Source: Bernardetiaceae bacterium (GTDB lineage Bacteria > Bacteroidota > Bacteroidia > Cytophagales > Thermoflexibacteraceae). Taken from it: DNA of 64,000 nt. Positions 280-19,176 of the stretch are shown piece by piece. A program made the position numbers and the translations under genes. Each line of letters starts with the position of its first letter. Position 1 is the first letter of the stretch. The stretch covers positions 5,001 through 69,000 of the forward strand of contig JANWVT010000005.1 in the NCBI GenBank assembly GCA_025056255.1, written 5' to 3'. The notes beneath the pieces are model-generated. The model saw nothing but the letters and a program-made list of their open reading frames with translations, was not told where the DNA came from and ran no database searches.

Positions 280-702
280 TGTTTTTTTAATTTTTTTGGT
301 CTTTTATTTGGAGTGATAAAAGCAGCCAGTCAAAGTCAATGAGCTTGATTTTATTTCCCGTTAATCAGGGCTACAAAGTTGTAAAGAGCGCATGAATTAT
401 GCAATAGTCGTCTCGATTTTTTTTAATTTTTTTATTAAAAAATTGATTTTCAATTAGTTGATATTGTGGTTATGAAACGTGTAGCAAATGGCGTTCTGGC
501 TTAAATCGAATAAACATTAGGCTCGTTGCGTGGTATTATATGATTCCTTTTTATCGCAATAAACTGACTATCAGGTATCAAAGATTTGTGTTATATTGAA
601 CTGATTTCTCAAAAGAGCCTCTTCATAACAAACCATGGGATGGTTAGAGGTTATGCTGATAAACAGTATTTTTGTAGGCAACTGATTAAATAGCATTCTA
701 AA
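280..702. other. AT-rich intergenic region before ftsK
   Basis: This region separates the leftward promoters from ftsK. It contains long A/T runs around 281-300 and 417-445. I found no gene, no clear terminator and no consensus promoter for ftsK in it. Confidence 0.5.
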
Positions 703-3183
703 ATGGCTGCTAAACGCAACTTATATAAGAAGAAAAAAAAAGCGTCGTTTGTGGAATTAAAAGATTTAGTAGCTTTCTTACAAGACAGACGCTTCCATAT
801 TACTCTTGGGCTTTTGCTGATAGCTTTTTCTTTCATATTGGCACTTTCATTTATCTCTTACTTTTATACAGGTGAAGCAGATCAAAGCATCATAGAGTCA
901 TGGGATTCTTCTAATACTACTGCCCAAAATTGGTTGGGTAGGTTTGGTGCTGTGCTTTCTTACTACTTCATTTATCGCTGGTTTGGTATTGCTTCTTTTT
1001 TGTTTATTCCTATTTTTCTGAATGGTGGTTGGCTGTTAGTGTTTCGTCGCAGTATATTCACAGGCTGGCAGTCAGCTAAAATTTTCACCTTCTTCTTATT
1101 TTGGCTCAGCACTTCGTTTGGCTATTTAGTACTGGTTACCGAGTCGGAAAGTCACTACAGTTTTTTGTGCGGCGCTATTGGTTACGGACTTGCCCAAGGA
1201 CTGTATAATTTTATGGGGTGGGCAGTACTGCTGTTATTACTAATAGCCTTTATTGTATTCATGGTGTACAGCTTCGACCTTGATACGCTGCTGAATTTCC
1301 AACAAAAGGCTCAACAAACCGCTCAACAAATTAAGCATAAAGCAGCAGTAGCAACCGAAGAAGTACGCAACAATTTTAACCCGGCAGAGATTATCATGAA
1401 TAGTTTGCGACAAACGCCACCTAGAAATGATAAGCCTACCCAAGAAAATACAACAAACTTTCAGCCGGTAGTGGAAAGCGCAACCATTCGCACTAAAGAA
1501 AAAGCAGATACCCTTCAAAAGGAAACCCTATACGACAATACAACCAACACGACAAGTGTGCCACCTTTGGAGAACAATCCTGCTTTTAGCATTGAGGATA
1601 CTACGCTGTCTGAGCCTACCGCTGAATTATCGTACGAGGAGGAAGAAGAGCTTTCACAAGAACCAGCCTATGTTCGCTTTGGCTTATACGACCATACCTT
1701 AGAACTGAGTTCTTATAAATACCCAACCCCAGACTTACTCGACCCTCCCGAAGTTAGCAAGGTACGCGTAACCAAAGAAGAACTTGAACAAAACAAAGAT
1801 AAAATAGTAGAAACCCTGAGCAATTTTCGCATTGGTATTTCCAGCATTAAGGCAACTATTGGTCCTACGGTAACGCTGTACGAAATTGTTCCTCAGGCTG
1901 GAGTAAAAATTTCACGCATTAAGACTCTGGAAGATGATATTGCGCTGAGCCTATCTGCTTTGGGCATTCGCATCATTGCTCCTATCCCAGGACGCGGCAC
2001 CATTGGCATAGAAGTGCCTAATAAAAATCGGGAGATAGTAAGCATGAGCTCTGTTATTACGCATGAAAAATTTGTCAATAGCGACAAAGCGTTACCTATT
2101 GTATTGGGTAAAACTATTTCTAATGAAGTGTTTGTAACCGACCTTGCCAAAATGCCGCATTTGCTGATGGCAGGTGCCACAGGACAAGGCAAATCGGTAG
2201 GGTTGAATGTGATTCTTACTTCGTTGCTGTACAAGAAACATCCCTCAGAGCTCAAGTTTGTACTGGTAGACCCTAAAAAAGTAGAACTTACTTTGTTCAA
2301 CAGAATTGAGCGTCATTTTTTGGCTACGCTGCCTAACTCGGAAGAACCTATCATTACCGATACGCGCAAGGTGATTCATACGCTTAATTCGCTTTGTATT
2401 GAAATGGATGTGCGCTATAATTTGCTCAAGGAAGCTGGTTGCCGCAACATTAAAGAGTATAACCACAAGTTCACCCACCGGATGCTTAATCCGCAGGAAG
2501 GGCATCGCTTCTTGCCTTATATTGTGCTAATTATTGATGAGTTAGCAGACTTGATGATGACAGCGGGGAAAGAGATAGAAACCCCTATTGCGCGTTTGGC
2601 TCAACTGGCACGGGCTATTGGTATTCACTTGGTAGTGGCTACGCAACGTCCTTCGGTAAACGTTATTACTGGTATTATTAAGGCTAATTTCCCTGCACGC
2701 TTGTCTTTCAAAGTTTCCTCACGAGTAGATAGCCGCACCATTTTAGACAGCAACGGAGCCGAACAACTTGTGGGACAAGGGGATATGCTGCTTTCGAATG
2801 GTTCTGATATCATTCGATTGCAATGTGCCTTTATTGACACGCACGAAGTAGAGCGAATTTGCGAGTTTATCGGTGAACAACGCGGCTATGATACCTCTTA
2901 TTTGCTACCTGAATATGAAGACGAAGGAGCTGAAACTAAAACAGTTGACCTAAACAATCGCGACTCGATGTTTGAAGATGCTGCCCGATTAGTGGTAGCA
3001 CATCAGCAAGGTAGCACTTCGCTCATTCAGCGAAAATTGAGCTTGGGATATAATCGCGCCGGACGCATCATGGATCAGCTTGAAGCAGCAGGCGTAGTAG
3101 GTCCTTTTGAAGGAAGTAAAGCCCGCAAGGTTTTGATTCAAGACGAATACGCTTTGGAACAATTATTGAAATCCTTGTCGTGA
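703..3183 (+). CDS. ftsK: DNA translocase FtsK/SpoIIIE
   Basis: Septal DNA pump that moves chromosome termini through the closing division septum and helps resolve dimers. The 826-residue protein has about four hydrophobic membrane segments within residues 30-190, a polar Gln/Thr-rich linker to about residue 330, then the RecA-like motor. Walker A GATGQGKS is at residues 491-498, Walker B LIIDELADL near 609-617, followed by the conserved ATQRPSVNVITG stretch. The C-terminal winged-helix gamma domain (about 760-826) contains the SLGYNRAGRIMDQLE helix that reads KOPS-like sites in the family. Length and order are typical for Bacteroidota. The ATG at 703 gives a lysine-rich cytoplasmic start. 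lolA follows after 26 bases, a common pairing in this phylum. Confidence 0.97.
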   Translation: MAAKRNLYKKKKKASFVELKDLVAFLQDRRFHITLGLLLIAFSFILALSFISYFYTGEADQSIIESWDSSNTTAQNWLGRFGAVLSYYFIYRWFGIASFLFIPIFLNGGWLLVFRRSIFTGWQSAKIFTFFLFWLSTSFGYLVLVTESESHYSFLCGAIGYGLAQGLYNFMGWAVLLLLLIAFIVFMVYSFDLDTLLNFQQKAQQTAQQIKHKAAVATEEVRNNFNPAEIIMNSLRQTPPRNDKPTQENTTNFQPVVESATIRTKEKADTLQKETLYDNTTNTTSVPPLENNPAFSIEDTTLSEPTAELSYEEEEELSQEPAYVRFGLYDHTLELSSYKYPTPDLLDPPEVSKVRVTKEELEQNKDKIVETLSNFRIGISSIKATIGPTVTLYEIVPQAGVKISRIKTLEDDIALSLSALGIRIIAPIPGRGTIGIEVPNKNREIVSMSSVITHEKFVNSDKALPIVLGKTISNEVFVTDLAKMPHLLMAGATGQGKSVGLNVILTSLLYKKHPSELKFVLVDPKKVELTLFNRIERHFLATLPNSEEPIITDTRKVIHTLNSLCIEMDVRYNLLKEAGCRNIKEYNHKFTHRMLNPQEGHRFLPYIVLIIDELADLMMTAGKEIETPIARLAQLARAIGIHLVVATQRPSVNVITGIIKANFPARLSFKVSSRVDSRTILDSNGAEQLVGQGDMLLSNGSDIIRLQCAFIDTHEVERICEFIGEQRGYDTSYLLPEYEDEGAETKTVDLNNRDSMFEDAARLVVAHQQGSTSLIQRKLSLGYNRAGRIMDQLEAAGVVGPFEGSKARKVLIQDEYALEQLLKSLS

Positions 3184-3209
3184 GATCTTGTATACCCCAA
3201 ATTAATATC

Positions 3210-3857
3210 ATGAAGCATATTTTCACCATTCTCTTATTGGCTTGTATACCGCTTGTTATTTGTGCTCAGAACACACGCGACCCTAAGGCAGAAGCTATCT
3301 TAAATGCAATGAGCGAGCGCTACAAGAAAATGAGCGCCTTTCGGGCAGAGTTTAGCTACCATTTGCGCAGCCCGCAAGAAAAATTAGATGAAACTTTTAC
3401 CGGTGTGATTACTGTGAAAGGGGCTAAGTTCCGCCTCCAGTTAGGTAACCAAGAAATATACAATAACCAAACAACTGTTTGGACGTATTCCAAAGAAGAC
3501 AACGAAGTAACTATTACTGAATACGACCCCGAAAGCGGCGATATTAACCCCGCCGAAGTGTACAACATGTACAAAAAAGGGTTCAAATACTATTACATGG
3601 AAGAAAAAAAAGAAAACAACGAGTTGTTCGACGTAATTGACCTTATTCCCGACGATAAAAATCTGAACTATTTCAAAATCAGGCTAACTATTAACAAACG
3701 TACGCGTGAATTGAAAAGCTGGCAGATTTTCGAAAAAAACGGAAGGCGCTCGCTCTACACCATCAATAAGTTTCAGCCCGATATTGTTGTGGCAGATGCT
3801 TTCTTTAACTTTGATAAGTCGCAGTATCCAAAAGTAGTAGAAGTTGACCTGCGTTAA
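3210..3857 (+). CDS. lolA: Outer-membrane lipoprotein carrier protein LolA
   Basis: Periplasmic chaperone that takes lipoproteins from the inner-membrane Lol complex to the outer membrane. I place the start at the ATG at 3210, which gives a clean signal peptide (MKHIFTILLLACIPLVICAQ); an earlier in-frame codon overlapping the ftsK stop would add ten residues before it. The 215-residue product has the family's half-barrel pattern, including early YKKMSAFRAEFSY and later LDETFTGVITVKGAKFRL segments and a terminal LVYTI-like strand (RRSLYTINKF). It lies in a tight rightward cluster: ftsK ends 26 bases before it and the SUI1-type factor starts two bases after its stop, so co-transcription is likely. 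Confidence 0.9.
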   Translation: MKHIFTILLLACIPLVICAQNTRDPKAEAILNAMSERYKKMSAFRAEFSYHLRSPQEKLDETFTGVITVKGAKFRLQLGNQEIYNNQTTVWTYSKEDNEVTITEYDPESGDINPAEVYNMYKKGFKYYYMEEKKENNELFDVIDLIPDDKNLNYFKIRLTINKRTRELKSWQIFEKNGRRSLYTINKFQPDIVVADAFFNFDKSQYPKVVEVDLR

Positions 3858-3859
3858 CA

Positions 3860-4201
3860 ATGGCAAAATCATATAAAAATCGTTCCGGAGTTGTTTTCAG
3901 TACTAACCCCGACTTTGTCTATGAAGAGCATGTCCCGCAACAGCCGGAGACACTCGCACCGGCTCAACAAAACCTCCGAGTTATCATAGACCGCAAAAGG
4001 GCAGGTAAAACAGCTACTTTGATAGAAGGATTTGTTGGAAAAACGGCTGATTTAGAAGCACTTGGCAAGCAACTAAAAACTCAATGCGGCACAGGTGGAA
4101 GCGTTAAAGACGGTATCATCATTATTCAGGGCGATTGGAGAGAAAAAATCTGCGAATGGCTGCTCAAACAAGGCTACAAAGTAAAAAAAGTAGGCGGCTA
4201 A
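3860..4201 (+). CDS. SUI1/YciH-type translation initiation factor homologue
   Basis: A 113-residue member of the SUI1/eIF1 superfamily (bacterial YciH group), which in other bacteria influences start-site fidelity on the 30S subunit. The SUI1 fold covers about residues 40-113, with the typical basic R-RAGKTATLIEGF strand, the ALGKQLKTQCGTGGSVKDG segment and the closing IIIQGDW...LLKQGYKVKKVGG. The N-terminal 40 residues are a variable tail. The start is two bases after lolA stops. The downstream PorE-like gene starts inside its last codons, suggesting coupled translation. Confidence 0.9.
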   Translation: MAKSYKNRSGVVFSTNPDFVYEEHVPQQPETLAPAQQNLRVIIDRKRAGKTATLIEGFVGKTADLEALGKQLKTQCGTGGSVKDGIIIIQGDWREKICEWLLKQGYKVKKVGG

Positions 4202-6297
4202 TAAGCACTGCATGCTGGTACTGGTGCATAGTTATTGCTTTTGCAGGAATAACCAGCTCATTGCAAGCCCAAAAGCCTTCGCTTTTTGAAGAAGCCATGA
4301 AGGCTTATCGTGCTAAAAAATATGCCGATGCAGTTCTGTTGTTTGAAAACATATTGGCTGAAAAACGACAAGATGAACAAGCTTTGTATTATGCAGCTCT
4401 TTGCTATTTGCACTTGCAACAAGCTACTACAGCCTATGATTACTTAAAGATGATTCCTAAGTCGCAAGCCACTTTTTTAGATGAATACTACTATTGGCTC
4501 AGTAGAGCTGCTTACATGCAACATTTGTTTGAAGAAAGTAAAACCATCCTCAACTCTTACTTAAACGAACGCGGCAGTAGAAAATTTATCAAAGAGGCAA
4601 CTACATTGCTCACTCACATCAATTACGCCTTAGAGCTACAACAAAAGCCCGTTTTATTTAATATAGAAAATATCCGAAACATTAACTCTCTAGCCAATGA
4701 AAGTGTGCCCGTAGGCTATGCTGGCACACAACGATTTTGGTTTATTAGAAAAAAAAGAAATCAGCCTTCTGAATCGAAAACAGCTCCGGAAAAAGAAGGA
4801 TGGTTCATAGCTCAACAACAAACCAATGGACAATGGACGCGTCAGCTAGAAGACAATATCAACAAAAACAATTTTGCAGTATTACAATGGATTGAACACG
4901 AACGCAGTGTACTGGTTCTTAAGGGGGGCAAACTGTACATGGTAAAACCTTCTCCAACAGGTTGGCAGGTTTTACGCGAGTTAGATGTGCCTTTTCGCGA
5001 AACAAGCCGTCCCTTAGCTGCTACGCTGTACGACCAAAGCCGTAAACTGATTTTCTCGGCATTCAATCCCGAAACAAGCAGTTTAGACCTTTTTTATACT
5101 GAGTTGAAAACCGATGGTGTGTGGAGTGTACCCTATCCTATCGTAGAAATCAATAGCACGCGCGACGAATATACACCTTTCTTTGCTAATGATACCCAAA
5201 CGCTCTATTTTAGCTCTAAAGGTTGGAACAGCATAGGCGGATTCGATATATTTACAACCCGATACGACCCCGCCAAAAAACGTTGGACTATGCCGGAAAA
5301 TATCGGCTTCCCCATTAACTCTGCAGGCGATGATTATTGGATGCAAATCTATGGACAAAAAGGGCTTTTAGCTTCTAATCGCTCGGGAAGTGTTGGCGGC
5401 GAAGACATTTATCTGTTCTTTCCTCTCACTAAAATACTATTAACAGGAAAAATTACTGGTAGGCGCGGCGAACCTCTTAGCAATACAACTATCCAATTCT
5501 TATATCAAAACAAAAGTATTCAAGTACGCACAGATGCTTTCGGTTATTACAAAATAGAACTTCCCGTAGAAACAGACATACAAGCGCGCATTTGGCTACA
5601 AGGCAAAATCCAATACCAAGAAAATTTTCGCATTAGCAACCCCGAAACAGGCAGCAATACCCAAACCTTGCAAAGGCACTTCAACCTGCAAACCAGCCAA
5701 GCAACTGATGCAAAACCAACAAGCGAGCAACAAGAAACTACTGCCTTTGTATTTACTATCAACGGAAACGTGAAAGATGCAATACAAAAACAACCCTTGC
5801 GAGCTACTGTTAAGCTAATAGACGTAAGTAGTGCTAAGACCGTTAAATTTACTTCCACAGACGCTAACGGCAAATTCAACTTCTACTTAGAAAAGCCCGT
5901 GGAAGCCTACTTTATCGAAGTAATAGCCCGTGGATTTCTTTCCTACTGGCAGACGGGTGAACAACTCGGCAAAGAGGAACATACCATTACCTTGCAGCCA
6001 ATTGCAAGTGAAACTAATTGGCACATTCCAGCAATAAGTTTCGATGCACAAAGCGACAAGTTCAAACACTCTGCTATACCTGTGTTGGATAAACTAAGCA
6101 TGTTTCTTTTAGAGAACGGCACATTGAAAGTACAAGTTAGATGCCCAGAGGGTACTGCACAAATGGGTGAAAAACGTGCTGCTAGCATAGCTTCATATTT
6201 GATACAAAAAGGAGTTTCGCCCACACGCATCAGTACCGGCACCATTTCTAACTCTTCGTTGATTGATACGGGTATTGAACTATATATTTTGCCGTAA
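4156..6297 (+). CDS. PorE-like OmpA-family protein (TPR, propeller, CRD, OmpA)
   Basis: A 713-residue secreted envelope protein. After a signal peptide (basic MAAQTRLQSKKSRR, hydrophobic run, cut near SLQAQ) come TPR-like helices (about 35-150), a WD40/PD40-type propeller (about 190-420, with TLYFSSKGWNSIGGFDIF and LLASNRSGSVGGEDIYLF blades), two carboxypeptidase-regulatory-like beta domains (about 428-500 and 540-610), and a C-terminal OmpA-like region. This order matches PorE of the type IX secretion system, but Cytophagales also encode paralogues. The OmpA end is degenerate: the peptidoglycan-binding motif is weak (CPEG replaces GHTD). The ATG at 4156 was chosen for the signal peptide; ATG 4135 is also in frame. 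The start overlaps the preceding gene by 46 bases. Confidence 0.75.
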   Translation: MAAQTRLQSKKSRRLISTACWYWCIVIAFAGITSSLQAQKPSLFEEAMKAYRAKKYADAVLLFENILAEKRQDEQALYYAALCYLHLQQATTAYDYLKMIPKSQATFLDEYYYWLSRAAYMQHLFEESKTILNSYLNERGSRKFIKEATTLLTHINYALELQQKPVLFNIENIRNINSLANESVPVGYAGTQRFWFIRKKRNQPSESKTAPEKEGWFIAQQQTNGQWTRQLEDNINKNNFAVLQWIEHERSVLVLKGGKLYMVKPSPTGWQVLRELDVPFRETSRPLAATLYDQSRKLIFSAFNPETSSLDLFYTELKTDGVWSVPYPIVEINSTRDEYTPFFANDTQTLYFSSKGWNSIGGFDIFTTRYDPAKKRWTMPENIGFPINSAGDDYWMQIYGQKGLLASNRSGSVGGEDIYLFFPLTKILLTGKITGRRGEPLSNTTIQFLYQNKSIQVRTDAFGYYKIELPVETDIQARIWLQGKIQYQENFRISNPETGSNTQTLQRHFNLQTSQATDAKPTSEQQETTAFVFTINGNVKDAIQKQPLRATVKLIDVSSAKTVKFTSTDANGKFNFYLEKPVEAYFIEVIARGFLSYWQTGEQLGKEEHTITLQPIASETNWHIPAISFDAQSDKFKHSAIPVLDKLSMFLLENGTLKVQVRCPEGTAQMGEKRAASIASYLIQKGVSPTRISTGTISNSSLIDTGIELYILP

Positions 6298-9755: not shown

Positions 9756-12749
9756 ATGAAATTTTCTACGTTCAATCGTCTCATCCACTATGGAGTTACA
9801 TTAGCTTTTTGGTGGGCAAGCCATGCTGTTTTTGCCCAGTACACGGTGCAAGGTACAGTAAAAGATGCTGCAAGTGGGAACCCTCTGCCCGGGGTAAACA
9901 TTGTGGTAAAGGGTACTACGGCGGGAACCATTTCCGATGCTAATGGTGCATACCGAATCAATATTAGCAGCGGCAGTAGCGCTACATTGGTATTCTCTTA
10001 CATTGGTTATCTTTCCAAGTCAGTCGAGGTAAATGCTAACAGCGGAACGGTAGATGTAGCTCTTACCGAAGACGTAACTCGACTGGAAGAAGTAGTAATC
10101 ACTGGCTTGGCATCTTCTATTAAACGAAGCAACCTAGCCAATGCCGTTTCTACGGTTTCTGCCAAAGAGCTCATAGGTACTACACAAATTCAAACGGTAG
10201 ACAACGCCCTGTATGGGAAATTGACGGGGGTCAATATTAATGTAAACGGAGGGGCTCCGGGTGGTGGAGTTTCGGTGCAGTTGCGCGGTATTTCTTCCTT
10301 AGTAGGAGCTTCTCAACCGCTGTATATTGTAGACGGCGTGTATGTTAACAATGCTACTAACCGCAACGGTCGTGCTGCTGTGTCAGGCGCAGAAGCAGGT
10401 GCGGGTGTAGGCGCTCAGGATGATGCCCCCAACCGCCTTGCCGACCTGAACCCTAACGATATTGAAAGCATAGAAGTATTGAAAGGACCTTCTGCCGCTG
10501 CTATTTATGGTACTCGTGCCAATGCAGGGGTAATTATCATTACTACAAAAAAAGGTGCAGCAGGACGCACCAAAGTTTCCTTTGCACAAGACGTAGGTTT
10601 TGCCCGTGCACAACGCTTGCTGGGAGTGGACGATTGGACTGAAGAAAAAATCAACTTTTTCTTTCCGGCTGCCCGCCGAGCTATTGAATTAGAGCGCTTT
10701 CGGGCATCCGGCGGTCAGCGCTACGACTATGAAAAATATTTCTACGGCAACACAGCCACTTTGCTCAACAGTAGGGTAGCTGTTTCTGGTGGGAATGAAA
10801 AAACCAAGTTCCTCATTTCCGGAGCACTTACCGACGAGGACGGCATTGTGCGCCGCACAGGCTTTAAACGCTACTCCATTCGTTCTAACATTGACCACAA
10901 ACTCAACGACCGCATCTCTTTTGGAGTAGGTTCTAATTACATCCGCACCATCACCGACCGCGGCTTCACAGGTAACCAAAACAATACTGGCGCAAGTATT
11001 GGTTACAACATCGCTTATGTACCTAACTATTTCAACCTGTTTCCTAATGAAAACGGCGTATATCCTGATAACCCCTACTTTGCAGAGAACCCTATTGCTG
11101 TTACCGACCGCGGCATCAACAATTCAGTGGTTGACCGATTCATCCAATCGTTCAATTTTGGAGCAGACTTAATTAAAACCGACAAGTCCCTGTTGAAGTT
11201 TATTGCACAAGGCGGCTTAGACTTCACGCAAAATGCTACACTGGTGTATTTGCCTGAAGACCTACAATACCAACGCGCACAAGCAAACCCCGGCGATGCC
11301 ATGTGGGGCGAAACCCGCAATTTTAACACCAACATTCAGTTGGCTCTTACTTACAATTTCAACATTGGCAAGGTAAATATGAATTCCCAAGTGGGTACTG
11401 TTCGGCTAAACTTCCGCGAAAATAGCTTGCTGACCCGCTCACGCGGCTTAGCACCCGGACAAAAGAACCTCCGACAAGGAACAGTGCAAGAAATCTTCCA
11501 ATCTTTGCAGAGCAACATTACCGACGTAGGTTTGTTTGCTCAGCAAGAAGCCAACTGGGACGACAAAGTAGTAGCTACGGTAGGAATTCGTTGGGATAAA
11601 TCTACCTTAAATGGTGATGCCAACAAGTTTTATGCCTTCCCCAAAGCTTCACTGGCTGTAAATGTAGCTAACTTCGATTTTTGGAGTTTTAAAGAAGTTG
11701 TCAATCAGGTGAAACCACGCATTGCGTATGGAGAGACTGCCGGCTTGCCTGCTTTCGGACAAACGTTTACGGCGCTCAATGCAGCTAACATTGGCGGATT
11801 TCTAGGCTCAGTAGTTACTACAGCGGCAGGTAATGCCTCACTGGAACCAGAGCGTGCCAGTGAGTTGGAAGTAGGTATAGATGCAGGTTTTTTCAACAAC
11901 CGCTTGCAGTTGGAACTGACCTACTACGACAAACAAACTCGCAATAATATTCAAAACCTCAGCTTAGCACCTTCTACGGGTATCAATACCATACCCAGCA
12001 ACTTAGCACAACTTTCTAACAAAGGCTGGGAAGTTTCTTTGGGTGCTACGCCTGTTCAGCAAGAAAACTTCCGCTGGTTTACACGCGTAATGTACTGGCA
12101 GAACCGCCTGCTCACGAAGCGCTTAGGAGTTCCTGCCTATTTCACAGGAGGCTTTGGTACGGCACTGGGCACTTTCTGGATTCGCGAAGGCATTTCGCCC
12201 ACTACCATTATTGGTACCCCACAAGTATCGCCGGGAGTATTTACTGTTTGGGGCGACCAGCAACCCGACTTCCAAATGTCATGGTTCAATGAAATCTCCT
12301 TCCTGAAAAATTTTGAATTTACCATGCTGTGGCATTGGAAGCAAGGCGGCGATAACATTAACCTCACCGCATTCCTCACCGATGCAGGTGGCACCACGCC
12401 GGGCTGGTTCCGCGACGACGACGGCGACGGTATTCCTAATGGTCGTCAGCGCCCGCCTGCTCCGTTCAACAACGCCGGTCGCTGGGTACAAGATGCGAGC
12501 TACGTGCGCCTCCGCGAAATAGCGCTGTACTACAACCTGCCTAAAAATGCCTTAACGCAATGGTTCGACGATAAGATAAGCCGCGTGCGAGTGGGAGTTT
12601 CTGCCAACAACCCGCTTACTTTCACCAAGTATGAAGGTTACGACCCTGAAACCTCTACTTTCGGTCAACGCTCTATTGGCTCAGGTATTGATGTTACCCC
12701 TTATCCAACTTCCAAGCGTTTCTTTGGGCATCTGATTGTTGAATTTTAA
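9756..12749 (+). CDS. SusC/RagA-type TonB-linked outer-membrane transporter
   Basis: A 997-residue outer-membrane barrel that imports a glycan or peptide with its SusD partner, powered by TonB. After the signal peptide (cut near HAVFAQ) comes a carboxypeptidase-like N-terminal domain (about 29-110), a TonB-box region (TRLEEVVITG), then the plug with GKLTGVNINVNGG and the family hallmark IEVLKGPSAAAIYGTRANAG near residues 230-255. The rest is a beta barrel ending in a terminal phenylalanine (LIVEF). A short D-rich loop (DDDGDGIPNG) occurs late in the barrel, as in many SusC proteins. susD follows after 27 bases. No glycosidase is nearby, so the substrate cannot be read from context. Confidence 0.95.
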   Translation: MKFSTFNRLIHYGVTLAFWWASHAVFAQYTVQGTVKDAASGNPLPGVNIVVKGTTAGTISDANGAYRINISSGSSATLVFSYIGYLSKSVEVNANSGTVDVALTEDVTRLEEVVITGLASSIKRSNLANAVSTVSAKELIGTTQIQTVDNALYGKLTGVNINVNGGAPGGGVSVQLRGISSLVGASQPLYIVDGVYVNNATNRNGRAAVSGAEAGAGVGAQDDAPNRLADLNPNDIESIEVLKGPSAAAIYGTRANAGVIIITTKKGAAGRTKVSFAQDVGFARAQRLLGVDDWTEEKINFFFPAARRAIELERFRASGGQRYDYEKYFYGNTATLLNSRVAVSGGNEKTKFLISGALTDEDGIVRRTGFKRYSIRSNIDHKLNDRISFGVGSNYIRTITDRGFTGNQNNTGASIGYNIAYVPNYFNLFPNENGVYPDNPYFAENPIAVTDRGINNSVVDRFIQSFNFGADLIKTDKSLLKFIAQGGLDFTQNATLVYLPEDLQYQRAQANPGDAMWGETRNFNTNIQLALTYNFNIGKVNMNSQVGTVRLNFRENSLLTRSRGLAPGQKNLRQGTVQEIFQSLQSNITDVGLFAQQEANWDDKVVATVGIRWDKSTLNGDANKFYAFPKASLAVNVANFDFWSFKEVVNQVKPRIAYGETAGLPAFGQTFTALNAANIGGFLGSVVTTAAGNASLEPERASELEVGIDAGFFNNRLQLELTYYDKQTRNNIQNLSLAPSTGINTIPSNLAQLSNKGWEVSLGATPVQQENFRWFTRVMYWQNRLLTKRLGVPAYFTGGFGTALGTFWIREGISPTTIIGTPQVSPGVFTVWGDQQPDFQMSWFNEISFLKNFEFTMLWHWKQGGDNINLTAFLTDAGGTTPGWFRDDDGDGIPNGRQRPPAPFNNAGRWVQDASYVRLREIALYYNLPKNALTQWFDDKISRVRVGVSANNPLTFTKYEGYDPETSTFGQRSIGSGIDVTPYPTSKRFFGHLIVEF

Positions 12750-12776
12750 ACCACCAACTCTAAAATCTTGAAAGCC

Positions 12777-14150
12777 ATGTTAAAAAAATCGATATATGCC
12801 GCTCTTTTTACTGTTGCTTTGCTAGGCAACAGCGGCTGCAATTTCTTTACTTTGGAAAATGCCATAGACCCTAACAACCCTTCTTTGCAAAGCGTTAAGC
12901 AGAATGCTACTCGCAACCAAATTCAATCATTGATTACGGGTTTAGAGTTTCGCCATCGGGCACATGTATTTACCGTAACGGCTGCTTTCGGCTGCTTTGG
13001 TCGCGAAATTTGGTACCTGAATGCATCTGACCCTCGTTGGCAGACCGACTGGCTTGGACAAGGTGGACGCCGCCCCGACGGACAATTTTTTGCCGTAGGT
13101 CCAGCCTATGATGCACCTTACCAAACTATTAAACAAGGCAATATATTGTTGCAGGCTATTCGCAACACCAACGTAGTTACAGAACAAGAACGCCTTGCCG
13201 TTAGCGGTTTTGTAAAGACCATTCAGGCATACCAATACATGATTGTAGCCAATGGGCAGTTTCAAAACGGTATTCGCATAGACGTAGCCGATGAGCTAAA
13301 CCCCGGACCCTTTGTCCCTTACAATGAAGCGCTTGCTCGCATCAACGCTTTACTCAACGAAGCGAATGATGAACTGGGGCGTGCCGGAACAGGCAACTTC
13401 CCATTCCGCCTCACAGCAGGTTTTACAGCTAACGGCTTTGGAACCATACCCGCTATTCGCCAGTTAAACCGCGCTATCGCTGCCCGTTTGGCTATCTACC
13501 GGCAAGATTGGCAAGGAGCCCTAAATGCACTCAGCCAATCTTTCATGAACATTGATGGGGATTTAGAGGCTGGTCCTACTTTTGTCTATGGTCTGCCTCC
13601 CGACTTATTCAATCCGCTCTTCTTTGTGTTAGATGCTCCCGTAAACACCATGATTGTAGTGCATCCGTCGCTCATTAGCGATGCCCTACCTGGCGACTTG
13701 CGGGTGCAGCGCAAATTTTTCCGTCGTCGCTCACCTGTAGTAGTTACTACTGATAACATTCCACTAGCTGGCGAATGGCAAGATTTGCGCTATCCAACCA
13801 ACACCTCTCCTATCAAATATTTGCGCAACGAAGAATTGGTGCTCATCTATGCCGAGGCAAATGCACAAACTGGCAACACAGCCGAAGCAGTGCGTGCCAT
13901 TAATCGCATTCGCACAGCCGCTGGGCTGCCCGCTTACTCGGGAGCCACTACCCGCGATGCCTTGATTAACGAAATTCTTTTCCAACGCCGCTACTCGCTA
14001 TGGTGCGAACCTTGGGGGCATCGTTGGGTTGATGCACGTCGCTACAACCGCCTCAATGAGATTCCAGTAGCTTTGGACAGGGGCACCGTATTTACGCAAT
14101 TGGAACGCCCAATTGCCGAAGTAAACTGGGAGCTATTGCAAGGCAGATAA
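12777..14150 (+). CDS. SusD/RagB-type nutrient-binding lipoprotein
   Basis: The surface lid that binds substrate over the SusC pore. The 457-residue protein starts with a lipoprotein signal (MLKKSIYAALFTVALLGNSGC). TPR-like helices make the scaffold, and the C-terminal part carries the typical LRNEELVLIYAEANAQ, AVRAINRIRTAAGLP and EILFQRRYSLWCEPWGHRW segments. It is somewhat short for the family. I chose the ATG at 12777; an upstream in-frame TTG adds only three residues. It is paired with susC and ends before a strong terminator, so the transport unit is just these two genes. Confidence 0.92.
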   Translation: MLKKSIYAALFTVALLGNSGCNFFTLENAIDPNNPSLQSVKQNATRNQIQSLITGLEFRHRAHVFTVTAAFGCFGREIWYLNASDPRWQTDWLGQGGRRPDGQFFAVGPAYDAPYQTIKQGNILLQAIRNTNVVTEQERLAVSGFVKTIQAYQYMIVANGQFQNGIRIDVADELNPGPFVPYNEALARINALLNEANDELGRAGTGNFPFRLTAGFTANGFGTIPAIRQLNRAIAARLAIYRQDWQGALNALSQSFMNIDGDLEAGPTFVYGLPPDLFNPLFFVLDAPVNTMIVVHPSLISDALPGDLRVQRKFFRRRSPVVVTTDNIPLAGEWQDLRYPTNTSPIKYLRNEELVLIYAEANAQTGNTAEAVRAINRIRTAAGLPAYSGATTRDALINEILFQRRYSLWCEPWGHRWVDARRYNRLNEIPVALDRGTVFTQLERPIAEVNWELLQGR

Positions 14151-14176
14151 GTCACGTGAAGCCACATTAAATACTC

Positions 14177-14207
14177 GAAATTCCACTTCTGCCAGAAGTG
14201 GAATTTC
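14177..14207 (+). terminator. Rho-independent terminator after susCD
   Basis: A perfect 14-base stem GAAATTCCACTTCT (14177-14190) pairs with AGAAGTGGAATTTC (14194-14207) across a 3-base loop and is followed by a run of seven T residues. Confidence 0.9.
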
Positions 14208-14264
14208 TTTTTTTATCCTCTATTTTTGGCAAGCCTACATCTGTAATCATTAAACTGGATTGCT

Positions 14265-15992
14265 GTGTCGTCATTAGATTGGTTAGTTTTGGTATTTACC
14301 ATTGGCTTTATTACCGCCTACGGTATTTGGAAAACGCGTGGCAGCAAAAACACAAAAGAGTATTTACTCTCCAAAAGAATGAATTGGTGGACAATTGGCT
14401 TGTCCATTATGGCTACCCAAGCTAGTGCTATTACTTTTCTGAGCACCCCCGGGCAGGCTTTTTCCGACGGTATGCGCTTCGTACAATTTTACTTTGGGTT
14501 GCCACTGGCAATGATCGTACTTTGCATCACTGCCGTTCCTTTGTATCAGCGCTTACACGTGTACACGGCATACGAATTTTTAGAAAAACGATTTGATGTT
14601 AGAACGCGCTCGCTTGGCGCATTTTTATTTCTCATCCAACGCGGATTAGCAGCCGGGCTCACTATCTACGCCCCAGCATTAGTGCTTTCTACTATTTTGC
14701 AATGGGATATTTTTTATGTCAACTTTTTATTAGGCGGCGTAGTAGTGCTTTATACGGTCGTAGGCGGAACAGAAGCAGTAAGCGTTACCCAAAAACAACA
14801 GATGTTTGTCATTTTCATAGGGCTCATAGTGGCATTATATATGGTTTTTCACTTAATGCCACAAGAAGTAGGAGTATGGCAAGCCATGCAAATAGCCGGT
14901 AAGGCAGGCAAACTGGAAAGTATTGATTGGAGTTTTGACTGGAACAATCGCTATAATATTTGGTCGGGTATTATTGGAGGATTTTTCCTACAGCTTTCTT
15001 ATTTCGGCACCGACCAATCGCAAGTGCAGCGCTATTTAGGCGGTAAATCTACCACTGAAAGCCGTTTAGGTCTCATTTTCAATGGCTTCATCAAAATCCC
15101 GATGCAATTTCTAATTTTGTTCATTGGCGCAATGGTATTTGTTTTTTATCAATTTCATCAGCCCCCCTTGTATTTCAATCAGGTAGAGGCACAAAAGGCG
15201 CGCCAGTCGGAACAAGGGGCTACCTTCCGAGCCTTAGAAGAGAAATATCAGCAGCTTTTTTGGGAAAAACGCCAACAAACCCTTCGGCTGGCAGAAGCTC
15301 TACGGCAAAACAATCCTGCCGAAATAGCCCAAACGCAACAACTACTAAAACAGCAAACGCAAATAGCAAATGCTATTCGTCAACAAGCGCAAGCTATTAT
15401 TCACCAACAAAATGAACTAGAGGGCAAGGGAAAATCTGCTGATACTAACTACGTATTCCTCACTTTTGTTATTCAAAACCTTCCCAAAGGATTAGTGGGT
15501 TTGCTCATTGCCCTTGTGATTTGTGCTTCTATGTCATCCACCTCTTCCGAACTCAACGCACTTGCCTCCACTACTGTAATAGATGTATACAAACGTTCTA
15601 TCAAGCCTAATGCAGACGAATCGCACTATTTAAAGGTGTCCAAATGGATGACGCTTGCATGGGGAGCATATGCCATTTTGTTTGCAGAACTTGCCAGTTC
15701 GCTTAGCAATAATTTGATTGAAGCAGTCAACATTTTAGGCTCGCTCTTCTACGGTACTATCCTCGGTATCTTTTTAGCAGCTTTCTACGTTAAACGCATA
15801 AAAGCCAAAGCAATATTTCAGGCGGCTATCCTTGCCGAGTTAATAGTACTGGGATGTTGGAAATTGACTACAATTTCTTACCTTTGGTTCAATGTAATTG
15901 GCTGCATAGCTGTCGTATTGCTGGGGCTTTTGTTGCAACTATTTCACAAGCAGCATTTGGATGGTACAAGTTTTGCACATCTGAATAAATAA
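14265..15992 (+). CDS. Sodium:solute symporter (SSS family)
   Basis: A 575-residue polytopic membrane protein that couples Na+ entry to uptake of a sugar, amino acid or similar solute. The SSS core is clear: early SLDWLVLVFTIGFITAYGIW, YLLSKRMNWWTIGLSIMATQ, then SYFGTDQSQVQRYLGGKS and the ICASMSSTSSELNALASTT Na+-site helix. Between about residues 305 and 395 sits a soluble, Gln-rich coiled-coil-like insertion. The start appears to be GTG at 14265; no ATG gives the full first helix. It follows susCD after a terminator and so is probably transcribed separately. The substrate is not evident. It could use a Na+ gradient made by Nqr. Confidence 0.9.
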   Translation: MSSLDWLVLVFTIGFITAYGIWKTRGSKNTKEYLLSKRMNWWTIGLSIMATQASAITFLSTPGQAFSDGMRFVQFYFGLPLAMIVLCITAVPLYQRLHVYTAYEFLEKRFDVRTRSLGAFLFLIQRGLAAGLTIYAPALVLSTILQWDIFYVNFLLGGVVVLYTVVGGTEAVSVTQKQQMFVIFIGLIVALYMVFHLMPQEVGVWQAMQIAGKAGKLESIDWSFDWNNRYNIWSGIIGGFFLQLSYFGTDQSQVQRYLGGKSTTESRLGLIFNGFIKIPMQFLILFIGAMVFVFYQFHQPPLYFNQVEAQKARQSEQGATFRALEEKYQQLFWEKRQQTLRLAEALRQNNPAEIAQTQQLLKQQTQIANAIRQQAQAIIHQQNELEGKGKSADTNYVFLTFVIQNLPKGLVGLLIALVICASMSSTSSELNALASTTVIDVYKRSIKPNADESHYLKVSKWMTLAWGAYAILFAELASSLSNNLIEAVNILGSLFYGTILGIFLAAFYVKRIKAKAIFQAAILAELIVLGCWKLTTISYLWFNVIGCIAVVLLGLLLQLFHKQHLDGTSFAHLNK

Positions 15993-16086
15993 AATTGGCA
16001 AATTACCCCTTGCCTTTTCAATAACAATAGTTTTTATTGGCTTTGTACACCCTGATTATAGGCAGGATGATAGCCCCTATGCAAGT

Positions 16087-19000
16087 ATGAAACATAGCAT
16101 TTTTACGACAATTTTATTTCTTTGCTCGCTTTCAGCAGGGGCACAAATTGATGGTGCAGTGCGAATGCGAGGCGGGAAAAATATTACCAATGATCCAGAC
16201 GGCCTTGTTGTACTTGAACTTTTTGGACGCGGTGCTACCGAAATGATGGTATCTAATGACCCAAGTTTCCCCAATCAGCGGTGGCGTCCTTACGAAACCT
16301 CTATTAAGTGGCGATTGAAAACTACTGACGGAGATGGCTTGAAAAACGTGTACGTCATGTTTAAAGACAACCAAGGTAACGTTTCAGATGTTATTGAGAC
16401 TGTAATTGAATTAGACCGGCAGCCCCCTACCGATTGTAGCATCACTATCAACGGAGGGGCTAAATATACTAATGCACGCGACCGCCTCGTGAGCGTAGAG
16501 CTTTATGCCCAAGAAGCAAAAGAAATGCAAATCAGCTTGCGTAGCGACTTTGTAGGTGCCCAATGGGTACCCTATGCTGAACGCCGCAAAATGCAACTAT
16601 TGGGTGAAGACGGGGAGAAAATAATATATGCGCGTTTCCGCGACGTAGCAGGTAATGTTTCACAACCTGTTAGCGCCCGTATTATTTTAGACGCATCGCC
16701 TCCACTTAATCCTCGCGTATTAATTAATAATGGCGATGCTTACACTAATAAAGAAGAAGTTACGCTTTTTTTGAGTGCACAAGGAGCCAAAGAAGTGTTT
16801 ATTCGGGGAGGGTCGGAGTGGCTACCGATGCAAAATACCATCCAATGGAAGTTAGAACCTCCCGGAGACGGTGAGCGAGTAGTACAAGTGCGCTTTCGCG
16901 ATGAAGCCGGCAATTATTCAGCCGTAGCGCAGGATGCTATTATTGTAGATACAGAACCCCCTCTTATGCCTCGCATCTCTATTGATGGCGGCAATCGCTA
17001 CACCAAGTCTAATTCAGTTGTGTTGCGACTTTCTGCCATAGGCGCCCACGAAATGCAAATTGCCAACGATAGCTCTTTTCAAAATGTCGCTTGGCGCCCT
17101 TACAATGTTTCTTCTGCATGGACCCTGCCCGAAAGAGACGGTGTGAGAAGAGTATATGTTCGCTTCCGCGACCAAGCAGGTAATCTTTCCGAAACGGCTT
17201 GGTCTGAAATTATTTTAGACAGGGTGCCGCCTACCAAACCGCACATAGAAATCGTAGGCGACATGACCAAAATTTCTAATGACACAAGTGCTACAGTCAA
17301 TCTGAAAATTTCTGCCGAAGGAGCTAAGTACATGATGCTGAGCAATACGAGCAACTTTTACAATGCCCGCTGGGAAGTGTACCGTACAGAGGTAAAAAAC
17401 TGGAAACTGGGCAGCCCCGGCGATGACGGTGAAAAAGGAGTATATGTCAAGTTTCGCGATGAAGCCGGCAATGTTTCCGATATTGCCAGCACTAAAATTA
17501 AACTTGACCGCACCAAACCAATAGACTGTCGTATTGTAATAGACAATAACCGCGAGTTTACTACTCACCCTGATAAAAAAGTAAACTTAACCCTGTTTGC
17601 CAGAGGGGCTACTGAAATGATGATTTCCAACAACAGTACTTTTGTTGGTGCTAAGTGGCAACCCTACAACACTTCCATAGAATGGACGCTGGAAGGGGAG
17701 GACGGCTTAAAAAACGTAGTAGCTAAGTTTCGCGACCAAGCAGGTAACGAGTCGGACATAGTGGCTGACAACATCATCTTAGACCGCAAACCACCCTTCG
17801 ACTGTAGCATCGTCATTAATCGAGGCGACTCCATCACCAACGACCCCGACAAAGTGGTGGTAGTAAAAGTGAAAGCTAAACAAGCTGCTTTAATGATGAT
17901 TTCTAACTCCCCCGACTTTGCCGGAGAACGCTGGCGCGGTTACTCAGAACTCAATATCAATTGGGCATTATCAGGAGGCGACGGGGTAAAAACCGTTTAT
18001 GCTAAGTTTAAAGATGAAGCCGGCAACGAATCTCATGTTTACTCCGACGACATCATCTTAGATAGAACTCCACCTAAGAAAGGTTCCGTAAAAATTTTAG
18101 CAGAAAATCAGCAAGTAAAATTCCAACAAGTAAAACTCGAGCTGCTCGCGCAAGATGCTGTAGAAATGATGATATCCAATTTCTACGACTTCCGAAATGC
18201 TAAGTGGGAGCCCTATACTACTACAAAAGATTGGACACTGATTGGTGAAGACGGCGTAAAAATGGTATTCGTTAAATTCAAAGACCGCGTTAACAACATA
18301 TCGCAAGTAGCTTATGATAAAATTGGTTTAGATATGACCGCTCCCCGAGGAGGCGACATTAAAATCAATAACGGAGCAAGATATTGTACAAACATCAACA
18401 AACTCGTCACCCTAAAACTTTCCGTACAAGATGCTGTAGATATGATGATAAGCAACAACAAAGATTTTAAAGATGCTAAATGGCAACGCTATGAGCCTTA
18501 TATTTACAATTGGAAACTTGAAGGAGAGGATGGCGAAAAACAAGTATTTGCTAAGTTCCGCGACCGTGCTGGCAATGAAACACAACCCGTAGTAGCTTCT
18601 ATCATTTTAGACCGTCAAGAACCTATCAACGAGAAAGTGATTATTAACAACAATGAAGAATGTACCAACGCCGCCAATGGCAAAGTAAAACTCGATATTA
18701 GTGCAGAAGGTGCAAAAGAAATGATGATAAGCAACAATAAATACTTTAACAACGCAAGCTGGGAACCCTACAAAGAAAGCAGAGAATGGATTCTGTCGCC
18801 TAGCGATGGCGAAAAAACTGTTTTTGTCAAGTTTCGCGATGAAGCCGGTAATGAGTCTGGCATAGCAAGCGACAATATTTTGTTAGATACCGATGCCCCC
18901 ATTCCCGGAGCTATCAAATTTGCAGGAAACAATCAAACACTTACAAAAACAACCTTGGTAACACTTGAATTCAATGCCCGTAAAGCCAACTTTATGATGA

Positions 19001-19176
19001 TTTCCAACTCGCCAAGATTTGACGACGGAGCTATTTGGGAACCTTATCAGGCTTCTAAAAAATGGAGCCTACGCGATGGCGCCGGTCTTAAACGCGTTTA
19101 TGCCAAGTTTAAAGACAATTGCAACAACGAGTGCCAGCCCATTAGCCGGGAAATCACACTTGTGTACGAGAATTGA
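16087..19176 (+). CDS. Secreted protein of eleven Ig-like repeats
   Basis: A 1029-residue exported protein of unknown function. A signal peptide (MKHSIFTTILFLCSLSAGAQ) is followed by eleven tandem units of about 86-95 residues that fill the whole protein. Each unit has an opening strand with NNG..YTN, a central EMMISN, a W-PY element, then the strongest block DGEK-VFVKFRDEAGN, and ends in IILDRTPP before the next unit. The layout suggests a string of beta-sandwich domains like a surface fibre or adhesin. No catalytic motif, lipobox or clear type IX sorting domain is visible at the end (REITLVYEN). Repeat 3 has a short middle and repeats 1 and 11 are the most diverged. It stands alone, ending before a two-way terminator. 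Confidence 0.75.
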   Translation: MKHSIFTTILFLCSLSAGAQIDGAVRMRGGKNITNDPDGLVVLELFGRGATEMMVSNDPSFPNQRWRPYETSIKWRLKTTDGDGLKNVYVMFKDNQGNVSDVIETVIELDRQPPTDCSITINGGAKYTNARDRLVSVELYAQEAKEMQISLRSDFVGAQWVPYAERRKMQLLGEDGEKIIYARFRDVAGNVSQPVSARIILDASPPLNPRVLINNGDAYTNKEEVTLFLSAQGAKEVFIRGGSEWLPMQNTIQWKLEPPGDGERVVQVRFRDEAGNYSAVAQDAIIVDTEPPLMPRISIDGGNRYTKSNSVVLRLSAIGAHEMQIANDSSFQNVAWRPYNVSSAWTLPERDGVRRVYVRFRDQAGNLSETAWSEIILDRVPPTKPHIEIVGDMTKISNDTSATVNLKISAEGAKYMMLSNTSNFYNARWEVYRTEVKNWKLGSPGDDGEKGVYVKFRDEAGNVSDIASTKIKLDRTKPIDCRIVIDNNREFTTHPDKKVNLTLFARGATEMMISNNSTFVGAKWQPYNTSIEWTLEGEDGLKNVVAKFRDQAGNESDIVADNIILDRKPPFDCSIVINRGDSITNDPDKVVVVKVKAKQAALMMISNSPDFAGERWRGYSELNINWALSGGDGVKTVYAKFKDEAGNESHVYSDDIILDRTPPKKGSVKILAENQQVKFQQVKLELLAQDAVEMMISNFYDFRNAKWEPYTTTKDWTLIGEDGVKMVFVKFKDRVNNISQVAYDKIGLDMTAPRGGDIKINNGARYCTNINKLVTLKLSVQDAVDMMISNNKDFKDAKWQRYEPYIYNWKLEGEDGEKQVFAKFRDRAGNETQPVVASIILDRQEPINEKVIINNNEECTNAANGKVKLDISAEGAKEMMISNNKYFNNASWEPYKESREWILSPSDGEKTVFVKFRDEAGNESGIASDNILLDTDAPIPGAIKFAGNNQTLTKTTLVTLEFNARKANFMMISNSPRFDDGAIWEPYQASKKWSLRDGAGLKRVYAKFKDNCNNECQPISREITLVYEN

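Follow-up and report, generated by a model that had tools for sequence, protein, structure and literature searches.

An exported protein of eleven immunoglobulin-like domains, apparently constant in number across three families of Cytophagales

The window analysed here, 64,000 nucleotides of a Bernardetiaceae bacterium (contig JANWVT010000005.1 of assembly GCA_025056255.1, positions 5,001 to 69,000), carries at positions 16087-19176 of the + strand a gene for an exported protein made of eleven tandem immunoglobulin (Ig)-like domains. Domains of this type are known and common in bacteria, and it is the fixed eleven-domain layout that deserves notice. The protein has the appearance of a lasting structural component of the envelope, not of a fibre that varies. 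Chains of Ig repeats in bacteria commonly pass for adhesins or extenders of variable length, and the number and order of repeats appear constant in this one. To our knowledge, limited to a search that was not exhaustive, no Ig chain of fixed number and position-specific units has been described, and the eleven-repeat protein offers a simple system in which to ask how the length of such chains is set. Among the papers listed by the literature searches (10 of 4990 in one search), none concerned this protein family in Cytophagales, which does not prove that none exists. Papers are cited below by PubMed Central (PMC) identifier.

Gene and repeat layout

The gene, found in the list of open reading frames (ORFs) of the window, belongs to a 3.39-Mb genome. 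It starts with ATG and encodes 1029 amino acids (aa), the coordinates including the stop codon. A predicted 19-aa signal peptide is followed by eleven units, R1-R11, of 86-96 aa each. The features, all on the + strand, are listed with the evidence for each.

16087-19176, +, gene of the eleven-domain Ig-like exported protein (ORF; Big_13; all-beta model, pLDDT 83.7)
16087-16143, +, signal peptide of Sec/signal peptidase I (SPI) type, predicted cut before Gln20 (AGA|Q) (by eye; Q pattern in orthologues)
16138-16413, +, R1, residues 18-109, the first two residues being the end of the signal peptide (repeat alignment; full-length model)
16414-16689, +, R2 (repeat alignment; R2-R4 model)
16690-16947, +, R3, the shortest unit, without MMISN (repeat alignment; R2-R4 model)
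16948-17217, +, R4 (repeat alignment; R2-R4 model)
17218-17505, +, R5 (repeat alignment; full-length model)
17506-17781, +, R6, with EMMIS as a predicted strand at residues 510-514 and, in the turn that follows strand 540-549, FRD Asp550 (repeat alignment; full-length model)
17782-18060, +, R7 (repeat alignment; full-length model)
18061-18330, +, R8 (repeat alignment; full-length model)
18331-18609, +, R9 (repeat alignment; full-length model)
18610-18885, +, R10 (repeat alignment; full-length model)
18886-19173, +, R11, the protein ending four residues past the last strand (1019-1025) (repeat alignment; full-length model; Pfam)

The count of eleven units of about 92 residues, made by the first-pass annotation from the sequence, is borne out. 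A hidden Markov model (HMM) built from R1-R5 recovered R6-R11 at 71-117 bits (E 4e-21 to 2e-35), against 8.3 bits for the best of 1200 shuffled controls. Pairwise identity among the eleven units ranges from 27 to 53% (mean 42%), and Tandem Repeats Finder (TRF) detected no tandem repeat at the DNA level; the duplications hence look old.

Distribution and constancy of the eleven-repeat protein

The search of the order covered 390 genomes, with at most two candidates scored in each, and matches were taken as full-length when starting at query residue 20 or before and ending at 1016 or after. Any match was found in 53 genomes, a full-length one in 38. All 38 full-length orthologues reside in three families searched whole (42 genomes in total), namely f1 (11 of 13 genomes), f2 (11 of 11) and f18 (16 of 18). 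As for the four remaining family genomes, the gene is cut by a contig end in G011, present as partial pieces in G004 and as a contig-edge piece in G528 (77% complete), while G533 (84% complete) has no such match. None of the other 348 genomes of the order hosts a full-length match, and 11 of them contain partial or weak ones. Full-length presence in 38 of 42 genomes of the families and in 0 of 348 others makes the protein a plausible lineage-defining component of the envelope. Of the named relatives, the nearest stand at 88% in metagenome-assembled genomes (MAGs) titled Cytophagales and at 82% in those titled Bernardetiaceae bacterium, and a MAG titled Cyclobacteriaceae (L037), not placed in the family numbering, carries a full-length relative at 35%. 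In a sample of 395 genomes of the phylum, four besides the host genome gave weak partial matches. Plasmid records gave two matches at 28-31% identity, annotated as Ig-like and fibronectin type III (FN3). A phage or viral origin was discarded, as no match was found in phage records and none was confirmed in viral contigs.

Constancy was measured in a set of 31 sequences with starts chosen by script; L032-L036, which look like genomes already included, and the four-repeat proteins L038 and L002 were left out. Thirty of the 31 proteins are 1029-1070 aa long, the exception (L011, 983 aa) being cut by a contig end. In 8044 of 10200 comparisons between genomes, repeat k finds its best match in repeat k, where chance would give about 1 in 11 (~9%), though the rows are related and the figure is not a count of independent events. 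The same holds in 161 of 198 comparisons of the window protein with the 18 orthologues of f2 and f18. Same-position matches in these orthologues are 16-18 of 18 for each of R5-R10, 11 of 18 for R3, and 8 of 18 for both R1 and R4. In the gene tree each family forms one clade, with some long branches. Identity between genera is roughly 45-60%, and repeat number and order are apparently unchanged across the three families. The ratio of nonsynonymous to synonymous substitution rates (dN/dS) is 0.10 in the sole unsaturated pair of six, the other five being saturated, and shows purifying selection in that one pair. Fixed length, one-to-one correspondence of repeats and a clade-wise tree suggest that the eleven-domain layout is probably older than the three families and has since been kept. 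The supposition of the first-pass annotation that repeat number may vary between strains finds no backing in relatives: the survey, of one genome per species, returned 30 uncut proteins of 1029-1070 aa, with length, number and order of the repeats kept.

Shorter and longer relatives occur besides the eleven-repeat protein. The host genome has a paralogue of 410 aa and four repeats (L002, 1366-2598, +; G000:C74), which aligns to residues 295-658 (R4-R7), and similar four-repeat proteins are found in many genomes carrying the eleven-repeat protein. In the six-frame search, several matches to the four-repeat paralogue (G002:C18:39957-41072, G003:C13:32394-33509 and others) span one or two stop codons, perhaps merely the gene's own end within the aligned stretch. 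A third, more distant Ig-repeat protein of the host genome is encoded by an ORF of 629 aa (L084, 8201-10087, -; G000:C107). Some genomes of family f18 have further paralogues of about 1030-1405 aa made only of Ig repeats (L076, 6658-10872, +; L075, 7535-10690, -; L077, 7327-10428, +), so that repeat number does differ between paralogues. The OmpL47-type model also has matches elsewhere in the order, in other families, and these suggest that relatives are widespread.

Domain identity and predicted fold

That the units are a new kind of repeat finds no support, since the Pfam model Big_13 (PF19077) matches five stretches of the protein (E=5e-26, 91.6 bits against a cut-off of 27), and fold relatives have been solved. 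Big_13 defines a bacterial Ig-like domain family only, and implies no role. By profile and predicted model, the units are all Ig-like beta-sandwiches of a known bacterial type. The AlphaFold model of the full protein, built with six relatives, is all-beta, with a mean predicted local distance difference test score (pLDDT) of 83.7 and a predicted TM-score (pTM) of 0.32. Prediction of adjacent repeats, a check proposed in the first-pass annotation, gave Ig-like sandwiches: R2-R4, modelled from an alignment of 61 rows (61 of the 62 listed triples), are nearly all beta, with pLDDT 95.7 and pTM 0.77.

Solved structures were searched with the R2-R4 model. Fragments of GhpA of Aureispira are the top Foldseek matches (E 3.7e-11 to 5.5e-9, TM 0.45-0.50, 10-13% identity), and Salmonella SiiE reaches a best E of 7.2e-11 at 16-18% identity. 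Root-mean-square deviations for both are 6.5 Å or more across the three domains. VIA-align placed GhpA (Z 10.3) and SiiE (Z 8.7) among eukaryotic FN3 and Ig chains, rank 2 being a eukaryotic receptor (Z 10.1) tied with GhpA. Eukaryotic chains are thus interleaved with GhpA and SiiE, and the comparison identifies the fold, not a particular relative. Sequence-based searches of solved structures were less informative. The single-protein search returned nothing of note (best E=1.8); in the profile search of solved chains SiiE was best (E=0.15, not significant alone), and no GhpA chain appeared at E<=1. NCBIfam models of cold-shock proteins were also listed, at best with 24.5 bits against a cut-off of 137, and were taken as spurious.

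Conserved motifs and putative calcium sites

Two blocks of the units had been singled out, FRDEAGN as very conserved and EMMISN as striking. In FRDEAGN the FRD Asp is kept in 305 of 310 cells (R2-R11 in 31 sequences, with four Lys in R8 and one gap as exceptions). EMMISN is less uniform than had been thought, as it is exact in three of eleven units (R6, R8, R10). The shorter MMISN is exact in six (R6-R11), and the variants EMMVSN, EMQISL, EVFIRG, EMQIAN and YMMLSN occupy the position in R1-R5. The full-length AlphaFold model puts EMMIS of R6 in a predicted strand (residues 510-514); the FRD Asp of this unit, residue 550, comes right after a further strand (540-549). Judged from the model, EMMISN is a core strand and FRDEAGN a turn of the known domain type. 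The first Asp of the repeat, located at the junction between domains, is kept in 307 of 310 cells of R2-R11. R1 has no junction Asp, and keeps the FRD Asp in 26 of 31 sequences.

In SiiE, type I calcium sites are formed by one Asp from the end of the previous domain and two Asp of the next (PMC5466336). In the RII region of MpAFP, residues of both repeats contribute to the calcium junction, and calcium rigidifies the chain (PMC4083281). The tandem Ig-like beta-sandwich is common to these proteins and to the predicted model of the eleven-repeat protein, which is far shorter than the 595-kDa SiiE (PMC5466336). Of the three Asp in a type I site of SiiE, two have plausible counterparts here, the junction Asp and the FRD Asp. 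By analogy, calcium at the domain junctions is a hypothesis. The NCBIfam model of the Ca_tandemer repeat scored 28.7 bits and did not reach its cut-off of 50.

Export and the favoured explanation

Secretion, already proposed on first reading, agrees with the Sec/SPI-type signal. Of the 31 orthologues, 30 have the pattern [AGS]Q between residues 15 and 40, the Gln following the predicted cut, as in the Q-rule formulated for signal peptides of Bacteroidetes (PMC5837995). By sequence, Sec export is well supported. The reported absence of anchoring and catalytic domains, and of a type IX tail, was confirmed, in that no type IX tail (such as PF18962), anchor or enzyme domain exceeds the Pfam cut-off in the 1029-aa protein. 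PF18962 does not match the protein even at E<=1, and the only non-Ig Pfam matches within that limit, MetallophosC (E=0.094) and DUF4941 (E=0.12), are far below cut-off. The tail model of the type IX secretion system (T9SS) has 20 matches in the host genome, and is present in 140 of 148 genomes searched.

We favour, with a probability of roughly 0.55, a membrane-associated, probably surface-located, semi-rigid structural or adhesive protein. According to this view, a Sec-exported, non-catalytic envelope protein of eleven tandem Ig-like domains, with Big_13 and OmpL47-type similarity, would form a semi-rigid rod whose length is fixed and might reach 40-50 nm at full extension. This figure is arithmetic, not a result: a MpAFP repeat of 104 aa measures 45 Å (PMC4083281), and about 4-4.5 nm per domain makes a straight chain of 40-50 nm. 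The F-x-D-x-A-G-N turn and the near-invariant Asp at the start of the unit would set the angle between neighbouring domains, possibly via Ca2+ as in SiiE. Non-covalent contacts would hold the chain in the envelope, as in Leptospira OmpL47, and the individually conserved units would form a scaffold or an adhesive surface. We infer the rod shape, the calcium, the partners, the outer-surface rather than periplasmic site, and the adhesive or scaffolding role.

OmpL47 is the closest characterised protein by sequence, and has the same type of signal. It is an SPI-exported non-lipoprotein without transmembrane helix, associated with the membrane and, as several methods showed, exposed at the surface (PMC2698987), and its digestion by external protease is described also in PMC3544172. 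OmpL47 is reported to rank 29th among cell proteins by abundance, and to bind several host matrix proteins, more weakly than OmpL37 (PMC2935396). A surface role similar to that of OmpL47 is favoured because OmpL47 is exported by SPI, exposed and membrane associated. The two proteins differ in phylum and in size, the OmpL47 model having 336 positions against eleven repeats in 1029 aa. The NCBIfam OmpL47-type domain model NF047446 matches the whole protein with 54.1 bits (cut-off 40), which suggests that the NCBIfam label of OmpL47-type beta-barrel may cover Ig-like sandwiches. In the six-frame search 45 of 148 genomes exceed the NF047446 cut-off, and the matches listed for the host genome fall in another protein, on contig C107.

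Several points weigh against the favoured explanation. No single stretch passes NF047446 alone at the E<=1 limit, and G003, which hosts the 88% orthologue, gives no NF047446 match in the six-frame search. The equivalog model NF047441 (E=8.5e-15, best stretch residues 350-570) scores 55.2 bits, and misses its cut-off of 250; no characterised protein was found to match over the whole length. Weak single-stretch scores, the missed equivalog cut-off and the silence of G003 make membership in the OmpL47 type weak. Moreover, OmpL47 was taken by its discoverers as a beta-barrel spanning the outer membrane (PMC2698987, PMC2935396), a view unlike the Ig-like model presented here, and the analogy may be imperfect. 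With a full-length pTM of 0.32, the domains are clear and the overall shape is not set by the model. A reading of the unit alignment (45 of the 69 listed units) revealed no third conserved acidic position; lacking a counterpart of the third SiiE Asp, calcium is unproven, and the two conserved Asp may only shape the turn and the linker. No route of exit through the outer membrane was identified, no search having been aimed at the type I secretion system.

Alternative explanations

The protein may stay in the periplasm as a structural spacer or scaffold, either stretched along the envelope or connecting its machines through the conserved individual repeats. We regard this, the main rival, as possible, but on balance less likely. 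The SPI signal and the lack of a T9SS tail, in a genome with 20 matches to the tail model, are in keeping with it. TIR-domain proteins of two genomes carry one such Ig unit after a membrane segment, which would place it on the periplasmic side in a topology drawn by eye. Proteins of the PD40 plus OmpA-domain type bind peptidoglycan from the periplasm, and in two of the 20 neighbourhoods, which belong to different families, one is encoded next to the eleven-repeat gene; the number may reflect chance. Yet, the usual periplasm is narrower than 40-50 nm, and the extended chain would exceed its width. Furthermore OmpL47, the nearest characterised relative, has the same type of signal and is surface exposed (PMC2698987). 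A clade-specific ruler or scaffold of the envelope is a more speculative and rather unlikely proposal. In this view, a core protein of three Cytophagales families would be under selection to keep eleven Ig domains and the identity of every single one, either because each domain docks a particular partner or because the total length sets a distance in the envelope.

A fibre or matrix protein that varies in copy number outside the cell, its arrays expanding and contracting, is improbable. Though secretion, a repeat-only architecture and the existence of paralogues of 4, 2 and about 15 repeats would suit such a protein, and Ig arrays of the A. baumannii BAP are highly polymorphic (PMC4647330), the constant length in 30 of 31 sequences, the one-to-one repeats, the absence of TRF repeats and a tree following the families all argue against it. 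Two further roles deserve very little credit. The protein could be a surface accessory of the adjacent SusC/SusD/sodium-solute-symporter uptake locus (9756-15992), which lies beside it in the same orientation in all four genomes studied within the genus; in L043, a further genome of the family, the symporter is adjacent too. SusC/SusD adjacency is however limited to 4 of 20 neighbourhoods, within the genus, and that of the symporter to 5 of 20. In turn, the top fold matches to GhpA fragments could hint at a subunit of some appendage outside the cell, comparable to the grappling hook of Aureispira, an organism of the same phylum. Similarity among Ig chains is nevertheless common, as the eukaryotic receptor tied with GhpA by Z illustrates. 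Identity is 10-13%, no GhpA profile match is seen at E<=1, and the eleven-repeat protein lacks a sorting tail and is much shorter than GhpA, an Ig-like chain with residue numbers up to 5009. Grappling hooks have been described as a heptamer of a T9SS-secreted protein (PMC11205867).

Genomic surroundings

Genes for a SusC-like receptor, a SusD-like protein and a sodium:solute symporter precede the eleven-repeat gene, which starts 94 bases past the symporter stop. One further feature lies in between.

15997-16014, +, possible terminator between the symporter gene and the eleven-repeat gene (weak; 4 sites in the stretch against a shuffle mean of 4.1)

The promoter scan (10 sites against 6.6 expected) was uninformative. 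No neighbour is consistently shared across the 20 neighbourhoods compared, and few recur across genera: the symporter (the genus and L043), a 525-aa ORF (L039, L043) and the gene group c34 (L043, L044), together with the two kinds of gene that follow. The PD40 plus OmpA-domain genes are located directly beside the eleven-repeat gene in L046 (6090-8168, -) and L048 (11753-14395, -), and their architecture presumably recalls that of the T9SS component PorE. SpoIIE-type phosphatase genes adjoin the eleven-repeat gene in L058, and L046 has them in the vicinity. In two genomes of f18, TIR-domain proteins feature a membrane segment (by eye) and a single C-terminal Ig-like repeat of the MMISN type. 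The loci concerned lie at 681-2915 (+) and 3659-5500 (-) in L090 and at 2384-4651 (-) in L091. In L090 the TIR protein adjoins a protein with VWA and OmpA domains, a possible envelope-sensing or defence pair.

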